DNA from: Ruminococcus sp.
Lineage (GTDB): Bacteria > Bacillota > Clostridia > Oscillospirales > Ruminococcaceae
Assembly: GCA_021203985.1 (NCBI GenBank)
Contig: JAJQAB010000021.1
Span: 1-39,918, forward strand
DNA: 39,918 nt
Direction of reading: 5' to 3'
The notes below the pieces were generated by a model. That model was not told the DNA's origin and did not search any database. It saw nothing but the letters and a program-made list of their open reading frames with translations. Below are positions 29,090 through 29,851 of this stretch, piece by piece (within the stretch, counting starts at the first letter, position 1; every line of letters begins with the position of its first letter). Position numbers and translations under genes: made by a program.

Positions 29090-29506
29090 TTATCTGTCGC
29101 TGTCGCCTGGCTCGCTGTTTTGAAAGACGATCGGCTTTGGCGGCACTTGCAGGTCGCTGACCAGTGGAATCATGGAGAAAACCTGTCGGGATGTAATCCC
29201 GGTGAACACCGGGACTTGCTCGCTGACCTGCCGATAATAGTCGGCGGCGTAGATGCTGACGTCATAGGCGCTGAAGGGCGGCTGCGTGGCGTCCTTGTCG
29301 AGCGATTGCGACACCTCTGGGGCAGGGAGTGCGATTTTTTCGGTTTCGCCACTTTCATCGGTGATCGTCACGTGTATCAAGTGCATTTGCTTGCCGCGGC
29401 GGCGTCCGCTTATGCAAAAGTGGCAAAGGTTCTCCTGCTTGCCGTCCACATCAGAAAATTCGGGCGGTAATGAAGTGAAATCGACAAGATATTTGATCAT
29501 TTTCAA
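29090..29506 (-). CDS. Conserved hypothetical protein upstream of the SpoIID/PG-binding gene
   Basis: MKMIKYLVDFTSLPPEFSDVDGKQENLCHFCISG...; uninterrupted 138 aa, same direction. Confidence 0.6.
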   Translation of the reverse strand: MKMIKYLVDFTSLPPEFSDVDGKQENLCHFCISGRRRGKQMHLIHVTITDESGETEKIALPAPEVSQSLDKDATQPPFSAYDVSIYAADYYRQVSEQVPVFTGITSRQVFSMIPLVSDLQVPPKPIVFQNSEPGDSDR

Positions 29507-29576
29507 TAAAATTGCAGCATAAAATTTGTGTAACCTTACAAAGTTGTCGTTTTTTCTATTTTTTTCGATTTTTCGC

Positions 29577-29605
29577 TTGACAGATTCGATCGGATCGTGT
29601 AAAAT
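29577..29605 (+). promoter_or_regulatory. Near-consensus promoter with no downstream ORF
   Basis: TTGACA(29577-29582)-17 nt-TAAAAT(29600-29605). Confidence 0.75.
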
Positions 29606-29610
29606 AAAAA

Positions 29611-29777
29611 AAGTGATAAATGAATCGTTGTGTTTCCCAACGTTCGCAAGATAATTTTATTTTGTAAATATGGGTTTTGATTCGCATTTATCACTCGTTT
29701 TGTTGTCTCCTTTCTTTTGTTCTACGTTTTTATTTCATTTTTGACCAGGATTTTTTGGAATCCTGGTATTTTTTTGC
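29611..29777 (+). ncRNA. Candidate ~165-nt small RNA
   Basis: Promoter just upstream; closing stem AGTGATAAATG(29612-29622)/CATTTATCACT(29685-29695); CU-rich TCTCCTTTCT (29706-29715); terminator ACCAGGATT-TTTTGG-AATCCTGGT-ATTTTTTT. No convincing ORF. Confidence 0.6.
29744..29776 (+). terminator. Terminator of the candidate sRNA
   Basis: Perfect 9-bp stem, 6-nt loop, T7 tract. Confidence 0.8.
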
Positions 29778-29805
29778 CTTTTGATCGCTTACATGCGTTT
29801 GTACG

Positions 29806-29851
29806 AAAAAGCGCCCGTCTGTCCTTAGATGACAAATGGGCGCTTTTCTAT
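29806..29851 (-). terminator. Terminator downstream of ppdK
   Basis: Minus strand AAAAGCGCCC...GGGCGCTTTTT. Confidence 0.75.

Follow-up and report, generated by a model that had tools for sequence, protein, structure and literature searches.

An orphan transcription unit with an anti-Shine-Dalgarno stretch

What is the role of a transcription unit that has its own promoter and terminator and no evident gene between them? This question is raised by a 201-bp unit at positions 29577-29777 of a 39,918-nt stretch of Ruminococcus sp. DNA, referred to here as the window. A preliminary description had read the unit as an orphan, non-coding regulatory RNA built from a promoter, a perfectly paired 5′ stem, a linker complementary to Shine-Dalgarno (SD) sites and a perfect terminator. 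Direct reading of the plus strand confirmed each of these elements. The sigma-70-type promoter, TTGACA-17-TAAAAT, occupies 29577-29605, with the -35 box at 29577-29582, a 17-nt spacer and the -10 box at 29600-29605, and it matched 11 of 12 consensus positions in a promoter scan. Downstream, the arm AGTGATAAATG (29612-29622) pairs perfectly over 11 bp with CATTTATCACT (29685-29695), closing a 5′ domain whose internal region is assigned by folding to 29623-29684. The stem is followed by CGTTTTGTTGTCTCCTTTCTTTTGTTCTAC (29696-29725), which a 20-mer survey marks as a conserved core and which is predicted to be single-stranded. Within it lies the SD-complementary stretch TCTCCTTTCT (that is, UCUCCUUUCU) at 29706-29715. 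The unit closes with an intrinsic terminator at 29744-29775, comprising a 9-bp stem (29744-29752/29759-29767) and a T7 tract (29769-29775), which was also recovered by a scan as the strongest of four terminator-like sites. The earlier impression that the unit lacks an ORF also held, as no plausible ORF was found in any frame of the transcript.

The predicted transcript is ~165 nt long in the window, compared with ~95-125 nt in most relatives. The window RNA folds with an energy of -38.1 kcal/mol (z = -4.2), and none of 200 shuffles was equally stable. The promoter-like match by itself is not above chance in the sRNA stretch (shuffles average 1.2), and so the case for an sRNA gene rests on its relatives. 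Between the sRNA terminator and ppdK, at 29805-29850, the window contains a further G+C-rich hairpin (aaaagcgcccg...cgggcgctttt type) that is probably the minus-strand terminator of ppdK.

The RNA gene is conserved between genera of the Ruminococcaceae

A BLAST search with the 201-bp unit recovered the core region in 15/15 genus mates and in several further genera. From 13 of the relatives found in this way we built a covariance model, which gave a single match in each of 95 family genomes out of 299, representing 33/126 sampled genera. Order and class scans with this model found no homolog outside the Ruminococcaceae. With one mismatch tolerated, the core 20-mer (29702-29721) was found in 136/398 family genomes, compared with 1 when it was reversed as a control, nearly all sRNA copies being exact; R. 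flavefaciens and R. albus 8 are among the carriers in the matches listed. It is this conservation, seen by BLAST, by the covariance model and by the core 20-mer set against its reversed control, that takes the evidence for the sRNA beyond chance. At one locus (L208:1247-1520), two near-identical copies of the core and its hairpins lie in tandem, 247 nt apart, where a single copy is usual elsewhere.

The relatives share a constant order of elements: TTGAC-17/18-TATAAT, 6-7 nt, a stem, the unpaired conserved stretch, a linker and a terminator. Between genera, the promoter interior, the stem, its insert, the terminator sequence and the adjoining genes all vary. An own promoter and an intrinsic terminator are conserved throughout these relatives, as is typical of an independently transcribed, rho-independent sRNA gene, and the terminator keeps its position in homologs while its stem sequence differs. 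The -10 box mostly lies 35-60 nt from the core across at least 155 loci, listed matches that were chosen by exact core match; since this set was selected in that way, core conservation is to be judged from the covariance-model and 20-mer surveys. The 84-nt stem-loop of the window is long, as it is in a few genus mates, and is far shorter in most relatives. Compared across these sequences, the 84-nt 5′ domain reads as a local elaboration, with its internal region the least conserved part of the RNA and the core the most. In three genus mates (L005, L009 and L013), the 5′-stem insert includes an additional C-rich stretch (CCTCCTT or CCCTCCT) that likewise resembles the 16S anti-SD.

Covariance of the stem spanning 29612-29695 had been singled out in the preliminary description as a check on the RNA, and compensatory changes are indeed present among relatives. 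Four of nine pairs of the closing stem are altered on both sides, its covariation score is reached by 0/500 shuffles, and shifting the pairing partners along the stem abolishes pairing. Among 122 type-1 members, arms pair with their own partners at 7.5 of 8 positions, compared with 6.5 when arms are swapped. In these 122 members, pairs 1, 2, 5 and 6 swap among A-U, G-C and U-A; pair 1 is A-U in 63 and G-C in 43, and pair 2 is G-C in 74 and A-U in 37.

The genes flanking the RNA vary by genus and include metG, an M16 peptidase gene and, in the window's genus, convergent ppdK (ppdK was assigned by Pfam, the other neighbours were recognised from sequence). A divergent pyruvate:ferredoxin oxidoreductase gene is found at ~50 of 216 sRNA loci, a set that includes places fetched more than once. 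Retention of the RNA while its neighbours change is as expected for a stand-alone, trans-acting sRNA gene. A structured RNA with a terminator could instead be a 5′ leader, attenuator or riboswitch controlling a downstream gene, and metG or the M16 peptidase gene does follow on the same strand in some relatives. We consider this very improbable, given that ppdK, the next gene in the window, is convergent, that the core stays constant while downstream genes and their orientations change by genus, and that no alternative anti-terminator pairing was seen. It is scarcely credible that the transcript codes for a short hydrophobic peptide: start codons and frame vary among relatives, many of the short members lack a start codon altogether, and no synonymous drift is seen in the core at the nucleotide level, even though the core of the window RNA is free of stops in all three frames and a few relatives have an in-frame ATG upstream of it.

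We also compared the RNA with known families. Rfam 15, with 4227 families including 6S, SRP RNA, tmRNA and RsaE, gave no match to the sRNA at the gathering cut-off, and its only matches in the window were two tRNAs, both away from the sRNA. At E values up to 10, nothing in the sRNA region came near the cut-off and 6S, SRP, tmRNA and RsaE were absent, in agreement with the earlier failure to match 6S, SRP or tmRNA by eye. The 19 homolog loci that were scanned likewise matched no Rfam family. Stem covariation, a near-invariant unpaired core, changing neighbours and the lack of an Rfam family all support the initial reading of an orphan, non-coding regulatory RNA. We are nearly certain that this is a conserved RNA gene, widespread in the Ruminococcaceae and absent from Rfam.

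The core contains the anti-SD tail of 16S rRNA

The core, GUUGUCUCCUUUCUUUUGUUCUAC, spans ~24 nt and is near-invariant between genera. It is predicted to be unpaired, with a mean probability of 0.75 compared with 0.45 for the remaining RNA over 151 members, and with probabilities of 0.75-1.0 in the window RNA. Nine core bases, CUCCUUUCU, are identical to the 3′ tail of the hosts' own 16S rRNA, the anti-SD; in the window they are CTCCTTTCT at 29707-29715. The 16S 3′ ends used for this comparison, from two sRNA-bearing relatives, read GGATCACCTCCTTTCTA (3′ tail GGAUCACCUCCUUUCUA). Because CUCCUUUCU is common to the core and the 16S tail, the core can be described as an anti-SD with an extension on both sides. 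A genus mate, L019 (G015:C5), encodes a truncated member in which CTTTCTTT runs directly into the terminator and the core has lost its 3′ half (TGTTCTA), an indication that the anti-SD half is needed most.

In most members among the matches listed, the core ends in ACACAU, which is on the wrong side for a downstream AUG and is absent from the window member. An upstream CGU could pair with AUG only via wobble. The invariance of 24 nt raises the question of why an anti-SD sRNA would keep so many bases fixed.

Hfq co-occurrence and candidate targets

We think it probable that the RNA is an Hfq-assisted, trans-acting sRNA of the Ruminococcaceae that blocks SD sites. In this mechanism, the 5′ hairpin and the terminator would protect the ends of the RNA and keep the 24-30-nt core open between them. 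As a copy of the 16S anti-SD extended both ways, the core would pair with the SD regions of selected mRNAs, Hfq would help this pairing, and a core lying on an SD region would block ribosome loading. Transcription, Hfq binding, pairing with mRNAs, repression and the target list given below are all what we infer from the sequences.

Hfq was identified by Pfam in 32/32 sRNA-positive genomes compared with 17/44 sRNA-negative genomes, a co-occurrence with a Fisher p of ~3e-9, a statistic that ignores phylogeny. The protein is patchy in the family: 27/44 sRNA-negative genomes have no Pfam Hfq match though they are 95-100% complete, and many Hfq-positive genera have no sRNA. Dependence of the sRNA on Hfq is supported, without being proven, by this co-occurrence.

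Complementarity to the core was then assessed at several lengths. In 19 genomes, matches to AAAGAAAGGAGACAAC, a 16-nt complement of the core, with at most two mismatches did not clearly exceed those of the reversed control, and on these grounds we rejected a single long conserved target. Duplex energies across 1208 start regions, compared with 60 decoys in which the anti-SD was kept and the flanks scrambled, showed no tail excess for the real core, and the top match was the sRNA's own antisense (the genome sample from a closed relative amounted to 0.8 Mb, in stretches). The extended ribosome binding site (RBS) pattern AAAGGAGACAAC-n-ATG had 13 matches outside the sRNA locus versus 14 for a scrambled decoy in 80 genomes.

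Near-perfect matches to the core 20-mer outside the sRNA locus numbered nine in 398 genomes. Five of the nine, in five genomes, are opposite-strand RBSs 3-4 nt ahead of an ATG, and an SD-preserving scrambled 20-mer decoy had one match of any kind in 396 genomes. Five or nine matches versus one, for a single 20-mer decoy, is suggestive and not decisive. The genes behind the five RBS matches encode a GntR regulator, a resolvase, a DegV protein, an ABC ATPase and one protein that was not run against Pfam. These are five unrelated genes and none recurs, so they remain candidates only. The best single candidate is the GntR-type regulator at L292 (G287:C15): its RBS, AACAAAAGAAAGGAGACAACAGCTATG, complements the core at 20/20 bases.

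These results also bear on a different reading, in which the main role of the core is to bind a protein or the ribosome: the RNA would titrate or guide an RNA-binding protein, or mimic the 16S tail, and pairing with particular mRNAs would be secondary. An invariant core of ~24 nt exceeds what an anti-SD seed needs and so leaves room for a protein ligand. That ~24 contiguous bases are conserved though the RNAs otherwise diverge fits such a site, as do the lack of a genome-wide excess of extended core complementarity in start regions and the occurrence of this core in phages, where the 5′ domains before it are unrelated and tRNA genes are often adjacent (see below). We nevertheless regard this reading as unlikely, if a serious contender, as the core fits an idealised RBS complement and shares with known anti-SD seeds its C/U-richness and lack of pairing, the few near-perfect RBS complements outnumber the decoy, and no protein ligand of the core is known.

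Phage contigs carry the core behind other 5′ domains

Exact core matches in viral contigs led us to twelve phage contigs in which the core follows structured 5′ domains of other kinds, in most cases next to tRNA genes. In ten contigs (L230, L231, L233-L237, L283, L336 and L337, with L231 and L233 apparently one phage), we observed a common, strongly folded 5′ domain that starts with GAAAGCAGGCGGA and in most ends with CUCCCUUGCCUCCGCC (pattern gaaagcaggcgga...tgcctccgcc). A -10-like box lies 6-7 nt upstream of this domain, and the domain is followed by UGUCUCCUUUCUUUUGUU(C/U)UAC and a G+C-rich hairpin. In most of these contigs a tRNA or a tRNA-like sequence comes next, the tRNA-like ones being identified by eye. 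The phage hairpins have no clear T tract. In L234, terminase, portal and replication genes surround the core. L229 (1-240) and L232 (2600-3020) carry a third, unrelated structured 5′ domain before the same core, in phage tRNA arrays; in L232, a MazF-like protein is encoded near the core. A further viral match, L282, was rejected as an sRNA, as its other strand reads as an RBS, GAAAGGAGACAACATG.

No second exact core of the phage type was found among 398 family genomes, and the core-bearing phages may therefore be lytic or have hosts in other lineages. Neither INPHARED phages nor PLSDB plasmids contained a homolog of the phage-type RNA, and their matches to the core were at chance level only; the PLSDB plasmids also contained no relative of the window region.

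We tentatively suggest, as one possibility, that the core is a portable regulatory module common to host sRNAs and phages, and that phages, next to tRNA genes, join structured 5′ domains of their own to this 22-24-nt core so as to take over, imitate or blunt the translation control exerted by the host sRNA. Small-RNA genes can serve as attB sites, and the 23 nt that phage and host share exactly could represent an att core, in which case the phage copies would be attachment sites and the sRNA gene an integration target rather than a phage-captured regulator. There is little likelihood of this, since a conserved, structured 5′ domain in the phage loci is preceded at the same distance by a -10-like box of their own, the two phage loci examined in detail adjoin terminase or tRNA genes, and host genomes have one core instead of a prophage-type flanking pair. 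The phage versions of the core suggest that phage and host compete over the control of translation.

Comparison with known systems

Ruminococcaceae play a major part in fibre degradation in the rumen and gut, and their small RNAs are apparently almost unstudied in the open literature that we searched. In that literature, we found no relevant sRNA paper on Ruminococcus and no paper that prints the core sequence. The presence of the sRNA in R. flavefaciens and R. albus, with a precise core and a fixed architecture, could provide a direct handle on Hfq-type regulation.

RsaE/RoxS-type sRNAs of Firmicutes use a C/U-rich unpaired seed against SD sites. The likeness to RsaE drawn in the preliminary description stands for this logic and falls for membership, as Rfam gave no RsaE match at E values up to 10; the Ruminococcaceae sRNA differs from RsaE/RoxS in core, structure and host range. 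The best-known Hfq-dependent sRNAs with rho-independent terminators are mostly proteobacterial, and the Ruminococcaceae sRNA resembles them in its U-rich single-stranded stretches and T-tract terminator, with all 32 of the carriers assessed encoding Hfq.

The cia-dependent csRNAs of streptococci consist of two stem-loops with an unpaired SD-complementary stretch between them and have independent promoters and terminators; several are encoded per genome, under CiaR control, mostly with an anti-start CAU (PMC3091779). By folds and pairing probabilities, the Ruminococcaceae sRNA likewise has two stem-loops flanking an unpaired anti-SD stretch. In contrast to the csRNAs, it is single copy, has another core and is limited to the Ruminococcaceae and some phages. 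Promoters of csRNAs are CiaR-dependent and have a TTTAAG-type direct repeat, and TTAAG is absent from bases 29500-29577 upstream of the sRNA. The sRNA described here most likely acts as an Hfq-assisted anti-SD regulator that resembles the streptococcal csRNAs without being one of them.
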